Part shown: positions 10,190 through 41,335 of the stretch, in pieces
How positions within the stretch are numbered: the first letter of the stretch is position 1
How the letters are laid out: each line of letters begins with the position of its first letter
Source of the DNA: Algoriella xinjiangensis
GTDB taxonomy: Bacteria; Bacteroidota; Bacteroidia; Flavobacteriales; Weeksellaceae
Direction of reading: 5' to 3'
DNA: 41,396 nucleotides
Assembly: GCF_900115015.1 (NCBI RefSeq)
Contig: NZ_FOUZ01000018.1
Coordinates: forward strand, 1-41,396
The notes under the pieces: generated by a model
Database searches by the model: none
The model's input: only the letters and a program-made list of their open reading frames with translations
Told to the model about the DNA's origin: nothing
Position numbers and translations under genes: made by a program

Positions 10190-11788
10190 ATGGAAAAAAT
10201 ATCATTAAAGGATTCAAATTATTTTTCAAAATTGATGTTGAATTATATCAATCAAGATGAAAGTTTATCCGAATTCTACAATCTATTTCCAACCAAAGAA
10301 AACTATATAAAACAAGCGCAAACTAAGCTTGAAAATTATAAAAATAGAGAAATTCTTGTTGAACAAATTAAGCAACAATTAAGCGGTTTAGATTTATCTA
10401 AAAAGCAACAAAAGAATTTAAAAAAGCTTGCCGAAAAAAATACAGTAACTATAACAACTGGGCATCAATTAAATTTATTTACGGGTCCGATTTTCTTTTT
10501 CTATAAAATTCTTCAGGTCATCAAAGCATGTAAAGAATTGAATAATGAGCAAGACGAAATAAATTATGTTCCTGTTTTTTGGATGGCAACGGAAGATCAT
10601 GATTTTGATGAAATAAACCATTTTAAGCATGGTGACAGAATTATACATTGGTCAAAAAAACACGGTGGTCCAGTTGGTCGTTTATCAACCGAAGGTTTAA
10701 AAGAAGTTTTTGAATCTTTTTTATTGATTTTACCAAACGGAAAAAAGAAAACTCAACTACAAGAATTAATCAACCAATCTTATTTATCGCACGATAAATT
10801 AACAGATGCTACTAGAAAATTAGTTCATCTATTATTTAAAGATTATGGTTTATTATTTGTTGATGGAGATGATAAAGAATTAAAAAAATTAATGATTTCT
10901 ACTTTTGAGAAAGAATTAATTCAGCAAAAATCTTATCAACATGTTATTCCACAAAACGCTAAATTAGAAGCTTTAGGCTATCCAATTCAAGTTAATCCAC
11001 GCGAAATAAACTTGTTTTATATGAAGGACGATAATTCGCGCGAACGAATTATTGAAGAAAATGGAACGTATTTTGTCAATAACACTTCTATCACGTTTAC
11101 ACAAGAAGAAATTTTAAACGATTTACGTCAAAATCCAGCTAAATTTAGTCCAAATGTAATTTTACGTCCGCTTTATCAAGAAACAATTTTACCAAATGTC
11201 GCGTACATTGGCGGCGGTGGCGAAATGGCGTATTGGTTACAATTAAAGGAAATGTTTGCTCAATTTGAGGTAGATTTTCCGCTTTTAGTTTTAAGAAATT
11301 CAATGTTAATTCGTACACAAAAACAGCACGAAAAACAATTGAAATTAGAATTGAGTAACGAAGATTTATTTTCGAATAGTTTAACTATTACAAAAGAACG
11401 CGTTATAAATTCGTCTAAAATTGCACCAAAAATTCCTGCTTTGGAAGACGAATTGAAAAGCATTTTTGACCGATTAGAAAATTTAAGCGATTTAACTGAT
11501 TCTTCTTTTGCAGACATGATACAAGCGCAGCGTACAAAACAATTGAAAGGTTTTGAGCGAATCAAAAAAAGATTAATACATGCAGAAGTTAAACAAAACG
11601 AAGCAATTTTGAATAGAATTGAACAACTTTTGAAAGAGCTTTCTCAACAAAATAGTTTACAAGAACGTGTCAAAAACTTTGCAGATTTTGACTATTTAGA
11701 TGTTCACTATTTTATTGATTTTATTGCAGATAGTCTTCAACCTTTCGAGTTTGAGTTTATAATAAATACGCTTGACGAAGAATTTTAA
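10190..11788 (+). CDS. bshC: bacillithiol biosynthesis cysteine-adding enzyme BshC
   Basis: Adds cysteine to glucosaminyl-malate in the last step of bacillithiol synthesis. The 532 residues match the family length. Recognisable blocks are TITTGHQLNLFTGPIFFFYK (about 84-103), VPVFWMATEDHDFDE (about 124-138) and YIGGGGEMAYWLQLK (about 337-351), followed by the BshC coiled coil around 430-500. The ATG directly follows the TAA of the upstream gene. Its presence indicates that bacillithiol is a low-molecular-weight thiol of this organism, which matters for interpreting the glutathione-synthetase-like gene at 22837. Confidence 0.95.
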   Translation: MEKISLKDSNYFSKLMLNYINQDESLSEFYNLFPTKENYIKQAQTKLENYKNREILVEQIKQQLSGLDLSKKQQKNLKKLAEKNTVTITTGHQLNLFTGPIFFFYKILQVIKACKELNNEQDEINYVPVFWMATEDHDFDEINHFKHGDRIIHWSKKHGGPVGRLSTEGLKEVFESFLLILPNGKKKTQLQELINQSYLSHDKLTDATRKLVHLLFKDYGLLFVDGDDKELKKLMISTFEKELIQQKSYQHVIPQNAKLEALGYPIQVNPREINLFYMKDDNSRERIIEENGTYFVNNTSITFTQEEILNDLRQNPAKFSPNVILRPLYQETILPNVAYIGGGGEMAYWLQLKEMFAQFEVDFPLLVLRNSMLIRTQKQHEKQLKLELSNEDLFSNSLTITKERVINSSKIAPKIPALEDELKSIFDRLENLSDLTDSSFADMIQAQRTKQLKGFERIKKRLIHAEVKQNEAILNRIEQLLKELSQQNSLQERVKNFADFDYLDVHYFIDFIADSLQPFEFEFIINTLDEEF

Positions 11789-20840: not shown

Positions 20841-21058
20841 CGTTTTAATTCATAAATAATTTCCTCTAAACCGTTTAATTTTATTTCATAAACAGTAGAA
20901 AGTTGTACGCCTAATTTACCTGTCGGAAATCCACCTTTTCCTACAAACCATTCAAGATAAGAAACAGGTAAATCGCACAACAAACGCCCTTCGTATTTTC
21001 CGAAAGGCATTTTTGTTGTGACAATTTCTTTTAATATTTCGGGACGAAATCCTTCCAT
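20828..21058 (-). CDS. DUF3820 family protein
   Basis: A 76-residue cytoplasmic protein with the DUF3820 core MPFGKYEGRLLCDLPVSYL followed by EWFVGKGGFPTGKLG. Members are small and uncharacterised; the motif also appears in nuclease-related proteins. Its ATG overlaps the TAA of the rhodanese gene (TAATG at 21058), so translation is probably coupled. It ends inside the convergent GNAT gene. Confidence 0.85.
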   Translation of the reverse strand: MEGFRPEILKEIVTTKMPFGKYEGRLLCDLPVSYLEWFVGKGGFPTGKLGVQLSTVYEIKLNGLEEIIYELKRQFG

Positions 21059-21471
21059 TATTTTGTTACAGTTCCTTTGTAAGTCGACATTCCGTCTTTA
21101 AAATTCTTCGCATTTTTGAAGCCTTTTTCTTGCATTTTTTCTGTTGCAAGTTTTGCTCTAACGCCAGATTTACAATAGATATAATAATTTTTCTTCGTAT
21201 CTAATTTAGAAATCTCCTCAGTAAAATTAGGATTCTTAACATCTATATTTGTTGCTCCAGCCACGTGTCCTTCCGCAAATTCTTCTGGTGTGCGAACGTC
21301 TAACAAAACGTTTTTCTTGTTCTTAAAATTTATTTCAGATACATTATCCAAAGTAGACATTGTTTCTTCTACACGTGCGTGTTTACCTTCAGTATTTGCA
21401 ACTTGTTGCGCACAAGAACCTAAAAATAAAGTTCCTGTTAACATGATGATACCTGCTATTTTATTTCCCAT
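21058..21471 (-). CDS. rhodanese-like domain lipoprotein
   Basis: A 137-residue exported lipoprotein: signal peptide with lipobox LFLGSC (Cys20), a short linker and a single rhodanese domain from about residue 40. The domain shows LLDVRTPEEFAEGHVAGATNI (56-76) and the active-site loop YCKSGVR with Cys100. Rhodaneses carry persulfide sulfur; a periplasmic lipoprotein form may handle sulfane sulfur or act as a thiol relay. Its start overlaps the end of pth by 11 bases, and its stop overlaps the DUF3820 start. Confidence 0.9.
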   Translation of the reverse strand: MGNKIAGIIMLTGTLFLGSCAQQVANTEGKHARVEETMSTLDNVSEINFKNKKNVLLDVRTPEEFAEGHVAGATNIDVKNPNFTEEISKLDTKKNYYIYCKSGVRAKLATEKMQEKGFKNAKNFKDGMSTYKGTVTK

Positions 21472-22136: not shown

Positions 22137-22652
22137 ATGAAAAGAATAATTAGCGTTTTAATATTATTTTTAGGATTAAATGTTTTTGCACAAAATATTC
22201 CTAAAATAATGAAGACTGAATTTCCTGAAGTTGCTTTGCAAGATACTTTAATTACTTCGGATGGAGATTCGGTTACAATAAAAGAAGTTTTTTCTAACTA
22301 TAAAGGAAAAATTGTTTTGGTTGATTTGTGGGCAACATGGTGTGGAGATTGTATAAAAAATATACCTGCTCTGAAAACTTTACACGAAAAAAACCCAGAT
22401 GTAGAATTTGTTTATCTTTCGATGGATAAAACACCCGAAGCGTGGAAAAACGGGATTGAAAAATATAACATTGTAGGTCAACACTTTTACATGGGAAATA
22501 ACTGGAAAGGCGCTTTTGGCACAAGTATTGATTTAAATTGGATACCAAGATATCTCGTGCTTAACCAAGAAGGAAAAATTGCAGATTATTATAGTGTAAA
22601 GGCTGATGATCCGAAAGTGCAAGAGACAATTAATAGTTTAAGAAAGAAATAG
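22137..22652 (+). CDS. TlpA-like thioredoxin-fold disulfide reductase
   Basis: A 171-residue exported thioredoxin. The signal peptide ends near FAQ (residue 19). The thioredoxin domain contains VDLWATWCGDCIKNIPAL with the redox pair Cys69 and Cys72 (CGDC) and a later IPRYLVL cis-proline segment. Such proteins keep periplasmic thiols reduced, for instance during cytochrome c maturation, but no partner gene is adjacent. Monocistronic, with a clear terminator. Confidence 0.92.
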   Translation: MKRIISVLILFLGLNVFAQNIPKIMKTEFPEVALQDTLITSDGDSVTIKEVFSNYKGKIVLVDLWATWCGDCIKNIPALKTLHEKNPDVEFVYLSMDKTPEAWKNGIEKYNIVGQHFYMGNNWKGAFGTSIDLNWIPRYLVLNQEGKIADYYSVKADDPKVQETINSLRKK

Positions 22653-22670
22653 TTTATAGTTTACCAACTA

Positions 22671-22706
22671 AAAGGTGATTGAAATTGAAAAATCAATCAC
22701 CTTTTT
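22671..22706 (+). terminator. terminator of the TlpA-like gene
   Basis: AAAGGTGATTGA (22671-22682) pairs with TCAATCACCTTT (22693-22704) around a 10-base loop, followed by T run. Confidence 0.85.
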
Positions 22707-22836: not shown

Positions 22837-23817
22837 ATGAAAATATGCTTCGTTATGTACCCTTGGGACAAAGTAGAACCAGTTAAAGATTCTACTTTAC
22901 GTATGATTAAAGAATGTGTTAACCGTGGATTTGAAGTGTCCTATTTAACAAAAAACGATATCTCTATTGCCAAAGGTAAAGTTTTAGGAAAGTGCAAAAA
23001 ATTAATCACTAAAGACACTGAAGATTGTGTAGATTTTTATCACTCAATGCAATTTGAAAGTTCTATAAAAGATTTTACCGAATTTGATATGGTTTTTATG
23101 AGAGCTGATCCACCAATTGATCCGCTTTTATTAAACATGTTAGAGTTGATTGAAGACAAAGTATTTTTTGTCAATAAAATTTCGGGATTACGTAAGGCAA
23201 ACAATAAAATATATGCTGCATCTTTTGATGATGGCCAAGAAACTATTGTTCCACAAACGTTAATCACAAAAGATATTGACTTGATTAGATCATTTGTAGA
23301 AGAAAATAATTTTGATAAATTTATTGTAAAACCATTAGATGGTATGGGCGGAAAAGGTGTTATCCTTTTTGAACGTAACAACATGGGTAATTTATCATCT
23401 ATTTGCGATTTTTACATCAATCATACAGGTGCTTCACAACCTATTATTTGTCAAAATTATATAGAAGGTGCAGAAAAAGGTGATGTAAGAGCAATGGTTG
23501 TAAATGGCGAGCCAATTGGTGCTATTATGCGCGTACCGGCAGCTGGCGATCATCGTTCTAATATTTCGGCAGGTGGTTCTGCAATCAAACATGAAATGTC
23601 TGAATATGAGTTAGAACTTTGTCGTAAGATTGGGAAAAAACTAAATGAAGACGGTATTTATTTTTGCGGTGTAGACTTGATTAATGGTAAAATGGTCGAA
23701 CTAAATGTAGTAAGTCCTGGAGGAATCGTTCCTCACAATGAAGTAAATAATAACAAAGAAATGCAAGTTCAAGTAATTGACATGTTATTAGAAAAATATA
23801 AAGAATTTAGAGCATGA
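22837..23817 (+). CDS. gshB: glutathione-synthetase-like ATP-grasp ligase
   Basis: A 326-residue ATP-grasp enzyme homologous to prokaryotic glutathione synthetase, which joins glycine to gamma-glutamylcysteine. It shows an N-terminal MYPWDKVEPVKDST, the nucleotide loop KPLDGMGGKGV (165-175), MRVPAAGDHRSNISAGGSA (231-249) and the metal-binding VELNVVSPGG (287-296). No gshA lies in the window and bshC shows bacillithiol use, so the true substrate may not be gamma-glutamylcysteine. Its last codon overlaps the start of the amidohydrolase/QEGLA fusion (ATGA), indicating translational coupling. Its promoter is unclear; a weak TATTATTG lies at 22801. Confidence 0.88.
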   Translation: MKICFVMYPWDKVEPVKDSTLRMIKECVNRGFEVSYLTKNDISIAKGKVLGKCKKLITKDTEDCVDFYHSMQFESSIKDFTEFDMVFMRADPPIDPLLLNMLELIEDKVFFVNKISGLRKANNKIYAASFDDGQETIVPQTLITKDIDLIRSFVEENNFDKFIVKPLDGMGGKGVILFERNNMGNLSSICDFYINHTGASQPIICQNYIEGAEKGDVRAMVVNGEPIGAIMRVPAAGDHRSNISAGGSAIKHEMSEYELELCRKIGKKLNEDGIYFCGVDLINGKMVELNVVSPGGIVPHNEVNNNKEMQVQVIDMLLEKYKEFRA

Positions 23818-25820
23818 AATCATTAAGTATTCAACAAATCCTTGATAATATTGAAAATGAAGTTGTATTTGAAGCATACTCAGAAGACGAATCTTTTAAA
23901 ATAAAAATTGACGAGTACATTCCTTACGTTTGTGCTGCAATACACGATGGTAGCCACATGCGCGATGATGTTCGCGACAAATGTCTATTGTCTAATTATG
24001 AACGTTGGTACGAAGAAGATCCACATACAGCTGAGTTTGTAGAGACATTTCCTGTCTTGATACAAGGTTGTGATTCGCGTTTTGAGTACGATTTAAATCG
24101 TGCTCCAGCAACTGCAGTTTACGAAGAAGCTTGGGGAAAACAAGTTTGGAAAGACCCATTAACATCTTCTCAAAAACAAGTAAGTTTAGCAAAACACACG
24201 GCATTTTATGAGGTGGTTGAAGCCTTAATCAAAAAATTAGAAACAAAATTTAAATCGTGTTTAGTTTACGATATACATTCGTATAACTGGAAACGTTGGG
24301 ATCGTCCTGTGCCTGTTTTTAACATTGGTGCAGAAAAAGTAGACAAAGAACGTTATGGAAGTTATGTTGAATCTTGGCGTGATGAATTAGCGCAGATTGA
24401 ACTAGAAAATATTCATAATTATTCGGCGATAAATGATGTTTTTTACGGACGTGGTTATTTGTTAGAATTTGTAACAAATCGTTTCAAAAATACATTGGTT
24501 TTAGCGACAGAAGTTTCTAAAATTTATTGTGATGAGTTAACGGGCGAATCTTTCCCAGAAATTATCAACCAAATAAAAGAAGGTTTTAAAACAGCGATTT
24601 TAAACCATGCTTTTCAATTTGTAAAAACTGAAACGACATACAAAGTAGGTTCTAAACAAGTTAATATTTTACACAACGAGTTAGAATCTGATTTAATAAA
24701 AATTGATAAACAATTGTTTCAATTAGTAAACGATTTTGAGTTATTAAGTGTTATTAATCCAATCAATTTAGAGTTCGAAAAAAAGAAATTTTTAGCGTCT
24801 AAATATACTTACGAACCGCAGTTTAAATACAATCCGCTTAATATAAATCCGTTCGAATTTAAACGAAAGTTATCTAATATTAAAGTCGAAAAGATAAACG
24901 ATATCTCAATACAAAATATGTATGTTGATACGATAAATTCTTACTTTGATAAAGTTGATTTATTGGCAAATTTAGGTACAAATAAGTTTTTGTATAATTC
25001 GCTTCGTTATTTTGGAGAACCATCTAAAAAAGACATCGAAAACGCCAACTTTATTTTGTATTGCCCTGAATTTAGAATAGATAATCATGGTGATTATACC
25101 GAAGAAGAAGTAATCAATTTATTTCAAAAAGCAACCGATGATTATGGTTTTCAGTTTGATATAGAGGTTTCTGACGATATTGCATCAAAAGCACTTGTTA
25201 TTAATAGCAAGCGTAAAGTTGTGATAAAGAAAGGTGTAAAGTTTGATAAACGTTTTACAAATGGATTAATTGAGCACGAAATTGGTGTACACATGGTGAC
25301 AACAATGAATGCTTTGGATCAACCCTTAAAAATATTTAGCGTTGGTTTACCAGTTAATACTTTAACGCAAGAAGGTTTAGCGATTTTAAGCGAATATTAC
25401 ACTGATTCTATTAATCATAACCGTTTAAGAGAATTAGGTTTACGAGTAATGGCTGTGCATATGCTTACAAGTGGAAAATCATTTAATGAAACATTTATGC
25501 TCTTGATGGAAGAATATAAAATGTTGCCAGAAGATGCTTTTTATCTAACAACACGTGTTTATCGTGGAGGTGGATTTACAAAAGATGCATTGTATCTAAA
25601 AGGATTCAAAACAATTCTGAATTATGTAGATCAAGGTCGTTCATTAGATAATTTATTGATTGGAAAAACATCAGTAGAATACATTGATACAATTGATGAA
25701 TTGGTTGAGCGTAAAATGATTAACAAACCAAAATATTACACAAAAATTTTCAAGAAACATCTTGAAAATCCAGAAATAAATCCAATTTTACATTATATAT
25801 TTAATGGAATAAAAGATTAA
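23814..25820 (+). CDS. fusion: N-formylglutamate amidohydrolase-like domain plus QEGLA/DUF1704 (MATCAP-type) metalloprotease domain
   Basis: A 668-residue protein of two halves. Residues 35-270 resemble N-formylglutamate amidohydrolase: AAIHDGSH (His44, His48), FEYDLNRAP (90-98) and YDIHSYN with His155. Residues 300-668 are a QEGLA-motif (TIGR02421/DUF1704) protein, often annotated as flavohemoglobin expression-modulating, with HEIGVH (His488, Glu489, His493) and LTQEGLA (517-523). Eukaryotic relatives of DUF1704 are the MATCAP tubulin carboxypeptidases, zinc peptidases that remove a C-terminal residue. No signal peptide is seen, so it should be cytoplasmic. It overlaps the ATP-grasp gene by 4 bases, suggesting ligase and hydrolases act on one compound. 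Substrate unknown. Confidence 0.87.
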   Translation: MKSLSIQQILDNIENEVVFEAYSEDESFKIKIDEYIPYVCAAIHDGSHMRDDVRDKCLLSNYERWYEEDPHTAEFVETFPVLIQGCDSRFEYDLNRAPATAVYEEAWGKQVWKDPLTSSQKQVSLAKHTAFYEVVEALIKKLETKFKSCLVYDIHSYNWKRWDRPVPVFNIGAEKVDKERYGSYVESWRDELAQIELENIHNYSAINDVFYGRGYLLEFVTNRFKNTLVLATEVSKIYCDELTGESFPEIINQIKEGFKTAILNHAFQFVKTETTYKVGSKQVNILHNELESDLIKIDKQLFQLVNDFELLSVINPINLEFEKKKFLASKYTYEPQFKYNPLNINPFEFKRKLSNIKVEKINDISIQNMYVDTINSYFDKVDLLANLGTNKFLYNSLRYFGEPSKKDIENANFILYCPEFRIDNHGDYTEEEVINLFQKATDDYGFQFDIEVSDDIASKALVINSKRKVVIKKGVKFDKRFTNGLIEHEIGVHMVTTMNALDQPLKIFSVGLPVNTLTQEGLAILSEYYTDSINHNRLRELGLRVMAVHMLTSGKSFNETFMLLMEEYKMLPEDAFYLTTRVYRGGGFTKDALYLKGFKTILNYVDQGRSLDNLLIGKTSVEYIDTIDELVERKMINKPKYYTKIFKKHLENPEINPILHYIFNGIKD

Positions 25821-25823
25821 AGA

Positions 25824-25850
25824 AAAAGCTCCATTTTGGAGCTTTTATTT
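25824..25850. terminator. terminator between the QEGLA gene and the convergent permease
   Basis: AAAAGCTCCA (25824-25833) pairs with TGGAGCTTTT (25837-25846) around three T. The right arm overlaps the permease stop, so it may act on both strands. Confidence 0.8.
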
Positions 25851-40303: not shown

Positions 40304-41335
40304 ATGGAAAAACTTTTTAAACTAATTAGGGAAGAAAATGTAGTTTTATTTGTTGGTGCTGGTTTTTCAATGTATACAGGATTACCATCAGGAAATAAAC
40401 TAAAAGAAGAATTAATTAATTCTGTACCTGATCTAAGAGAGGATTTAAATTATAATGATTCTCTTAGTAAAGTTGCAGACGATATAATAAATCTTCAAAA
40501 CGGTTCGAGAAACGACATTAACAATCTACTTAAAAAACTGTTCAACAAAACTAATTTTGATAATTTAGAAACTCATCAAAAATTAGCTTCAATTCCTCAT
40601 ATAAATTCTATTATAACCACAAATTATGATAAAACTTTAGAAATTGCTTATTCAGACAATCATCATTTAATCTACAAAGATAATGACCTTGCTTATATTG
40701 AAAAATCAAAAACTAACATCTATAAAATTCACGGAACTATAGACTCTTTAGACAGTATTATTTTAAGTAAAAAGGATTATAACGATTTGTACAAAAACAA
40801 CTTTTCAAACAGCCTTATTTGGTCTCAAATAAAAAGTTTGCTTACAACAAAAACTGTCGTTTACATAGGTTACGGTCATGAAGATGATAATATTGATGTT
40901 ATTACTGATTTTATACATGATTCTTTAGGCTCAAACTTTAAAGAAGCTTATCTTATTTCTCCTAATTTAAAGAAAACTAAACTTGCCGAATTAAATAGAA
41001 AGAAGATAAAATACATTGATTCTACAGGAGAAGAATTTATTAATAGTTTATTAGAAAATATAAATGAAAATATACTTGATGACCATAAAAACAAAATTGT
41101 ATCAGATGAAACATTTACTAAATTTTTACATCAAGCAAACATAAAACCAACAATAAAAAAAGAAGAAGATTCAAACACTATTGTTAATTTAGAAAGTAAA
41201 GACGGTAATAATTTAGTTTCTAACTTTAGTTTATCTTTAAATAAAGAATCCGATAAAAATAAAGAGTTTTTGGATTTTGTAAATGGAGATAAAATAGGAA
41301 CTGGATATACTAACTTAGTTGGGAGTAAAAGTTAA
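40304..41335 (+). CDS. SIR2-like domain protein, probable defence effector
   Basis: A 343-residue protein. Residues 1-255 form a SIR2_2-type domain: LFVGAGFSMYTGLPSG (15-30, NAD-binding loop), ITTNYD with the conserved Asn107, KIHGT with catalytic His143 and YIGYGHEDDN (187-196). The last 90 residues are a Lys/Asn/Ser-rich extension that I cannot assign. Bacterial SIR2-domain proteins of this type deplete NAD+ in anti-phage systems, usually with a partner such as HerA, a prokaryotic Argonaute or a fused sensor. A gene starts 23 bases downstream but is cut off. Position beyond a tRNA supports an accessory origin. Confidence 0.85.
   Translation: MEKLFKLIREENVVLFVGAGFSMYTGLPSGNKLKEELINSVPDLREDLNYNDSLSKVADDIINLQNGSRNDINNLLKKLFNKTNFDNLETHQKLASIPHINSIITTNYDKTLEIAYSDNHHLIYKDNDLAYIEKSKTNIYKIHGTIDSLDSIILSKKDYNDLYKNNFSNSLIWSQIKSLLTTKTVVYIGYGHEDDNIDVITDFIHDSLGSNFKEAYLISPNLKKTKLAELNRKKIKYIDSTGEEFINSLLENINENILDDHKNKIVSDETFTKFLHQANIKPTIKKEEDSNTIVNLESKDGNNLVSNFSLSLNKESDKNKEFLDFVNGDKIGTGYTNLVGSKS

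Follow-up and report, generated by a model that had tools for sequence, protein, structure and literature searches.

The window analysed here comprises 41,396 nt of Algoriella xinjiangensis (contig NZ_FOUZ01000018.1, positions 1 to 41,396) and contains, on its forward strand, two adjoining genes coding for a GshB-type ATP-grasp ligase (hereafter LIG) and for a 668-residue protein in which an N-formylglutamate-amidohydrolase-type domain (FG) is fused to a MATCAP/QEGLA carboxypeptidase-type domain (MAT) (Table 1). A first-pass annotation of the sequence had described the ligase gene as overlapping that of the fusion by ATGA and had regarded both as a single functional unit. The overlap was confirmed, with the motifs intact, and the unit was borne out by conserved gene order, co-loss and fusion, as detailed below. 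In the A. xinjiangensis genome a single MATCAP match was found, and the single PF02955 match corresponds to the LIG of the window.

Table 1. Features of the LIG/FG-MAT unit and its borders (coordinates of the window).
Feature	Position	Strand	Remark
LIG, GshB-type ATP-grasp ligase (type 1), 326 aa	22837..23817	+	
FG-MAT fusion protein, 668 aa	23814..25820	+	start codon overlaps LIG stop (ATGA)
LIG loop S293-P294-G295-G296 (GshB: S-P-T)	23713..23724	+	from alignment
FG domain, N-formylglutamate-amidohydrolase-type (PF05013), M14-like fold	23922..24464	+	
FG His44, probable metal ligand	23943..23945	+	invariant in 11/11 FG rows; role inferred
FG His155, probable metal ligand (DxH motif)	24276..24278	+	invariant in 11/11 FG rows; role inferred
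FG Glu233, probable catalytic acid/base	24510..24512	+	invariant in 11/11 FG rows; role inferred from M14-like fold
MAT domain, MATCAP/QEGLA carboxypeptidase-type	24705..25817	+	
HEIGVH (residues 488-493), metal site	25275..25292	+	H, E, H invariant in 13/13 aligned rows; aligns with HEIGTH of human MATCAP
QEGLA (residues 519-523); Glu520 third metal ligand by analogy	25368..25382	+	aligns with EEG motif of human KIAA0895L/TMCP1
Hairpin and T-run 3' of upstream thioredoxin-like gene	22670..22706	+	read by eye; separates LIG unit from that gene
Terminator-like hairpin after LIG/FG-MAT unit	25824..25846	both	hairpin scan

MAT scored above the curated cut-offs of both PF08014 (334.6 versus 27) and TIGR02421 (374.7 versus 338.65) and has the MATCAP fold, with a metal site made of HExxxH plus EG, and FG passed the PF05013 tests on family score, fold and conserved His and Glu residues. 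Judged by sequence, the catalytic motifs of the fusion are intact, MAT being of the carboxypeptidase type and FG of the N-formylglutamate-amidohydrolase type. In human TMCP1, the E281A mutant is reported to be inactive in vitro, and both E281A and E316A strongly lower activity in cells; the enzyme removes a terminal Tyr, Phe or Ala, followed by Glu, and no longer acts on ends whose penultimate Glu has been replaced by Asp or Gln (PMC10499314). FG differs from the known PF05013 N-formylglutamate amidohydrolases (2q7s, 2odf) in being fused to or paired with MAT and tied to LIG; likewise MAT, unlike the MATCAP/TMCP tubulin carboxypeptidases treated in the same report, is bacterial and lies in an operon with a ligase and FG.

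LIG carries the GSH-S_N and GSH-S_ATP domains and is nearer to GshB than to RimK in score and fold; it scored below the RimK subfamily model (TIGR00768, 97.6 versus 143.4), and the two RimK rows stood apart from it in the tree. Among the glutathione-synthase models, the cut-offs of TIGR01380 (236.3 versus 299.05) and NF009110 (321.2 versus 408) were missed. Residues including R89, K124, K165, R218, R232, R240, D280, E288 and N290 are common to all 34 aligned LIG and GshB rows. Compared with GshB, which is among the closest known systems (E. coli 1gsa), each of the 28 LIG rows departs at nine columns that do not vary among the six GshB rows. One of them is the change of T288 to G, in the loop following the invariant Asn290, and position 295 (LIG numbering) is G in 28/28 LIG rows and T in 6/6 GshB rows; the changed columns may contact the substrate. 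Neither of the gshA families PF04262 and PF04107 gave a match in the A. xinjiangensis genome, other gshA types not having been searched, and the bacillithiol cysteine-adding enzyme BshC is encoded at 10190-11788 of the window (TIGR03998, 415.4 bits). Since the two gshA families are absent and the GshB-specific residues are missing from LIG, plain glutathione synthesis by LIG appears unlikely. The first-pass annotation, which had noted bshC, had seen no gshA and had doubted that the product is ordinary glutathione, is upheld on these points as far as the two gshA families searched go, with one narrowly passed model, reported below, counting against it.

To define how widely LIG, FG and MAT occur together, 110 loci were classified, namely L021-L039, the best 80 of 570 relatives in a public-genome scan (all 80 Bacteroidota by their titles), nine plasmid loci, of which six were selected by MAT and three by LIG (L133-L135), a genome locus selected by LIG (L141), and that of the window. 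Plasmid records with MAT numbered 127 and those with a LIG-like gene 196; six of the former and nine of the latter were examined, L130-L132 and L136-L138 serving for comparison outside the 110. The examined plasmid records yielded Alpha- and Gammaproteobacteria, a further record, labelled Roseateles, being marked as of unverified organism. MAT was present in 109 of the 110 loci, the exception being L134, and in 95 of these 109 LIG lay no more than 6.5 kb from MAT and in the same orientation, a figure to be read as a statement about LIG given MAT because most loci were picked for MAT. All 95 also hold a hydrolase, of FG type in 92 and of AstE/AspA type in three. Wide separation of the ligase and QEGLA genes, which would have pointed to chance adjacency, is therefore not the rule. 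Seven of the 14 MAT loci lacking LIG consist of a symporter followed by MAT, three of MAT alone (L025, L104, L123), and four carry FG: L116 and L094, both at contig edges, L099, with no LIG within the 2.4 kb ahead of the contig end, and L120. The first bases of L116 look, by eye, like the tail of a LIG gene.

MATCAP domains are sparse, being found in five of 60 genomes of the family (one copy, in G028, is interrupted by masked bases) and in 16 of 296 of the phylum, that of the window included. The converse linkage was examined by a second search of 296 Bacteroidota genomes, all 16 MAT-positive ones included, with PF02955 at more than 150 bits. Seventeen genomes had such a ligase, 15 of the 16 MAT-positive against two of the 280 MAT-negative; weaker matches were all below 97 bits among the matches listed. 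The only MAT-positive genome without a GshB-type ligase (G243) has a MAT of the solitary type (L025), and the two ligases of MAT-negative genomes (L126, L127) have the loop SPTGIKEI, as in ordinary GshB. The adjacency of LIG and FG-MAT is not due to chance, and the genes form a real functional unit. Indeed, the same domains stand together in records of Bacteroidota, Alpha- and Gammaproteobacteria, in two different orders, and the explanation by chance adjacency in this lineage, in whose favour nothing was found, is refuted by the co-occurrence in the 296 genomes and by the locus classification, so that we give it a negligible probability.

In the type 1 layout the order is LIG, FG, MAT, with FG and MAT fused in 20 loci, including that of the window; in Flavobacteriaceae the two are separate genes. 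With L120, whose fusion has no adjoining LIG, FG-MAT fusions amount to 21 of the 109 MAT loci. In the type 2 layout the order is FG, MAT and a second ligase type (LIG2, the type 1 ligase being LIG1), as seen in Bacteroidota and in records of Mesorhizobium, Sinorhizobium and Shinella, and two genomes have hybrid loci with both ligases (L030, L031). The type 2 MAT protein has about 240 additional N-terminal residues, and a profile of 12 such N-termini matched the FG profile with an hhalign probability of 95.6% (E 1e-8, 201 columns), against at most 0.4% for 25 controls (AstE, LIG, MST, MAT, 20 column shuffles and one reversal). Read by eye, the N-terminus of L030 has a gap in place of FG His44, Trp in place of His155 and Ser in place of Glu233, and all 12 N-termini lack a His at the His155 position, so that the type 2 N-terminus looks like a dead FG domain. 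Since FG is linked to MAT in either layout, the two would be expected to form a single physical assembly, and they probably act as one body.

In the split arrangement of Flavobacteriaceae, a two-domain rhodanese, sometimes accompanied by a 108-111-aa protein, separates LIG from FG in 25 loci (e.g., L052, L030, L033); in L094 it precedes FG at the contig edge. All 26 copies carry the motif CG(S/T)G(I/L)TA, presumably of the 3-mercaptopyruvate-sulfurtransferase type, and the L052 copy gave no Pfam match. Upstream of LIG, again in Flavobacteriaceae, a sodium:dicarboxylate symporter (assigned to PF00375 on the single operon copy scanned) is found in 56 of the 95 MAT+LIG loci, the two hybrids counted, with gaps below 200 nt in all but four.

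Eight genomes have MAT with neither LIG nor FG adjacent (L063, L081, L092, L103, L104, L109, L118, L119). A whole-genome search found PF05013 in none of these eight, whose completeness is unstated and of which L104 is a metagenome assembly, nor was there any ligase match near the 644-645 bits seen for LIG1 of two controls: the best matches reached at most 90 bits in seven genomes and 148.8 in the eighth, L092, which has a type 2 set elsewhere, in the order MAT, LIG2, AstE-type hydrolase (L141). The losses represent fewer than eight events, since three of the eight genomes are Arenibacter. MAT keeps HExxxH and QEGLA in all eight. At three LIG2 loci without FG, an AstE/AspA-type hydrolase (PF24827) adjoins LIG2, on the same strand in L039 and L141 and on the other strand in L037. 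Whenever LIG stands beside MAT, a hydrolase of the FG or of the AstE/AspA kind is thus always there (95/95).

We propose that LIG, FG and MAT form a dedicated module that makes and cuts a glutamyl-type amide bond, a reading that we consider evenly poised between right and wrong. By the ATP-grasp mechanism of GshB and RimK, LIG would use ATP to activate the carboxyl group of a small glutamyl-type, acidic substrate to an acyl-phosphate and would then couple it, in a pocket altered from that of GshB, to an amine or amino acid. FG and MAT would be a body with two active sites that dismantles or trims the product of LIG, MAT as a metal carboxypeptidase removing its C-terminal residue and FG as an M14-like metal amidohydrolase opening an N-acyl or gamma-glutamyl amide. 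The acidic substrate is pointed to, each time indirectly, by the replacement of FG by AstE/AspA-type hydrolases, the presence of the symporter and the Glu requirement of TMCP1; the family names of the N-formylglutamate amidohydrolases and of AstE/AspA come from hydrolysis of N-acyl-Glu or N-acyl-Asp. The direction in which the steps run, their order and an action of the hydrolases on what LIG makes are likewise proposed.

Several observations weigh against this proposal. MAT is retained without LIG and FG in the eight genomes described above and is solitary in L025 and L123, and must therefore be of some use independently of them. The Vibrio locus L120 has the FG-MAT fusion with LIG not adjacent, and L134 (Ensifer adhaerens plasmid) has LIG2 with no MAT or FG nearby. 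FG could not be aligned by sequence with AstE-type proteins (hhalign 2.0%), their kinship being assumed from their folds. LIG narrowly passed the NCBI glutathione-synthase model NF003573 (274.9 versus a cut-off of 272). The phylogenetic tree neither established nor rejected a clade of LIG1 and LIG2 (p-AU 0.30), and the same holds for LIG1 with GshB (0.34). Finally, the symporter adjoins aroC in many Flavobacteriaceae and is absent beside the unit of the window, and may therefore reflect mere synteny. As to the immediate surroundings of LIG2 in L134, they include CsbD-family, ferritin-like and DUF2934 genes. The solitary short MATCAPs of L025 and L123 (424 and 426 aa, with HEAYVH and HEGWIH) perhaps represent a separate subgroup.

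The narrow pass of NF003573 is what would be expected if LIG were a glutathione synthase acting on imported gamma-Glu-Cys, making GshA unnecessary, with FG and MAT recycling glutathione or related peptides, and the sulfurtransferase-like motif of the rhodanese found between LIG and FG (before FG in L094) speaks in the same direction. The lack of both gshA families, the bacillithiol gene and the alteration of the GshB-specific residues oppose it, as does Sinorhizobium meliloti, where the record of strain Ak57 has an ordinary gshB (L130) and the pSymB records of other strains have LIG2, the two genes thus coming from different strains. We therefore judge this explanation improbable. Even less probable, in our opinion, is that the hydrolases serve the catabolism of peptides or N-acyl amino acids feeding the pathway of the dicarboxylate symporter, with LIG in a separate role and regulation alone in common: MAT directly follows the symporter (12-110 nt) in seven loci without LIG and FG, but FG is lost along with LIG and not with MAT, and every MAT+LIG locus has FG or an AstE-type hydrolase.

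A further alternative is that a protein or ribosomal peptide is reversibly tagged at its C-terminus, in a bacterial analogue of the tubulin tyrosination cycle or of the RimK/RimB pair: LIG would append a residue to a Glu at the C-terminus, MAT would remove it, and FG would trim a branch or N-acyl group. The mapped operons contain no conserved candidate substrate gene, and LIG is closer in score and fold to GshB, with its small-peptide substrate, than to RimK, so that this alternative is unlikely, albeit worth keeping in mind. Somewhat more doubtful is its extension to a bacterial C-terminal code, in which LIG would add a residue to glutamate-ended C-termini of proteins or peptides, the MATCAP domain, which is related to the human tubulin detyrosinase, would remove it and FG would clear a second modification, of branch type; if true, a bacterial operon would parallel the eukaryotic ligase/carboxypeptidase cycle of tubulin.

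Returning to the make-and-cut module, its nearest precedent in logic is the RimK/RimB(/RimA) system of Pseudomonas, where an ATP-grasp ligase is likewise encoded with a hydrolase undoing its work (PMC11957791; PMC10092738). There, RpsF is polyglutamylated by RimK and freed of the glutamates by RimB, and an enzyme that is a hybrid of RimB and RimK is also described (PMC11957791). Making and cutting is thus not a new principle. The present module is not a member of that system: RimB is a retropepsin-like aspartic protease, whereas the module has two metal hydrolases of other folds and a GshB-type ligase. No RimB-type protease adjoins LIG in the window, its neighbours being a thioredoxin-like protein and FG-MAT, with no such family among the Pfam matches of the latter. 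The module also differs from LysX/ArgX-LysW in that no recurring carrier-like gene was seen in the mapped operons, no LysW model having been searched. In a Phaeobacter record (L138:306-2546), rimK is flanked by a RimK/LysX-family gene (PF05618, the family to which we take RimB to belong) and by an AstE/AspA-type hydrolase gene, a trio of ligase plus two hydrolases of the same kind as LIG/FG/MAT, made of other parts. On a Streptomyces xanthii plasmid (L136), a 'glutathione synthase' gene lies beside another ATP-grasp gene, an aspartate kinase and two TauD-type dioxygenases, in what looks like a biosynthetic cluster.

The domains are individually known, and no description of the LIG/FG/MAT combination was found in the literature searched, within which it is new. 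The gene pair is nonetheless visible in print. In Photobacterium damselae at 1% versus 3% NaCl, GshB (RS17020) was up 38-fold and QEGLA (RS17025) 27.5-fold (PMC10308900), the adjacency of the two genes being inferred from their locus tags and from the layout of Photobacterium sp. GJ3 (L125); in Vibrio vulnificus, VV2_1203 (COG3930) and VV2_1204 (glutathione synthetase) are both tabulated among the genes specific to clade 2 (PMC3091676). The portions of these two papers that were available contain no treatment of the pair as a module. The earlier description of the pathway as undescribed holds within the literature searched, and the earlier interpretation as a whole is supported in part, that is, for the functional unit, the intact motifs and the improbability of glutathione as product. 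The annotated records examined name the genes 'glutathione synthase/synthetase', 'N-formylglutamate amidohydrolase' and 'flavohemoglobin expression-modulating QEGLA motif protein', names that mislead if the module makes something else. The gene set is conserved among many bacteria of the sea and of soil. Were it what it looks like, a pathway would be common to rhizobia, to numerous marine Flavobacteria and to certain Vibrionaceae, and the MATCAP fold would gain a bacterial, genetically tractable setting. A MATCAP-like stretch (37% identity over 48% of the query) is also encoded by Pseudomonas phage Y1 (L145, an unannotated record marked unverified).

As for the surroundings of the unit in the window, LIG is closely preceded by two genes, one for a rhodanese-domain protein that begins like a lipoprotein (21058-21471) and one for a thioredoxin-like, TlpA-type protein (22137-22652); both have relatives in L021-L024. 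The hairpin following the latter gene is absent from the hairpin-scan list, since its 12-nt loop exceeds the limit of the scan, which returned three terminator-like sites for the region versus 2.0 expected in shuffles. Downstream of the unit lies a convergent amino-acid permease gene. Near the end of the window (40304-41335), a very weak N-terminal match to the model of the anti-phage sirtuin Dsr1 (23.2 bits versus a cut-off of 1400) likely reflects a shared fold or chance.
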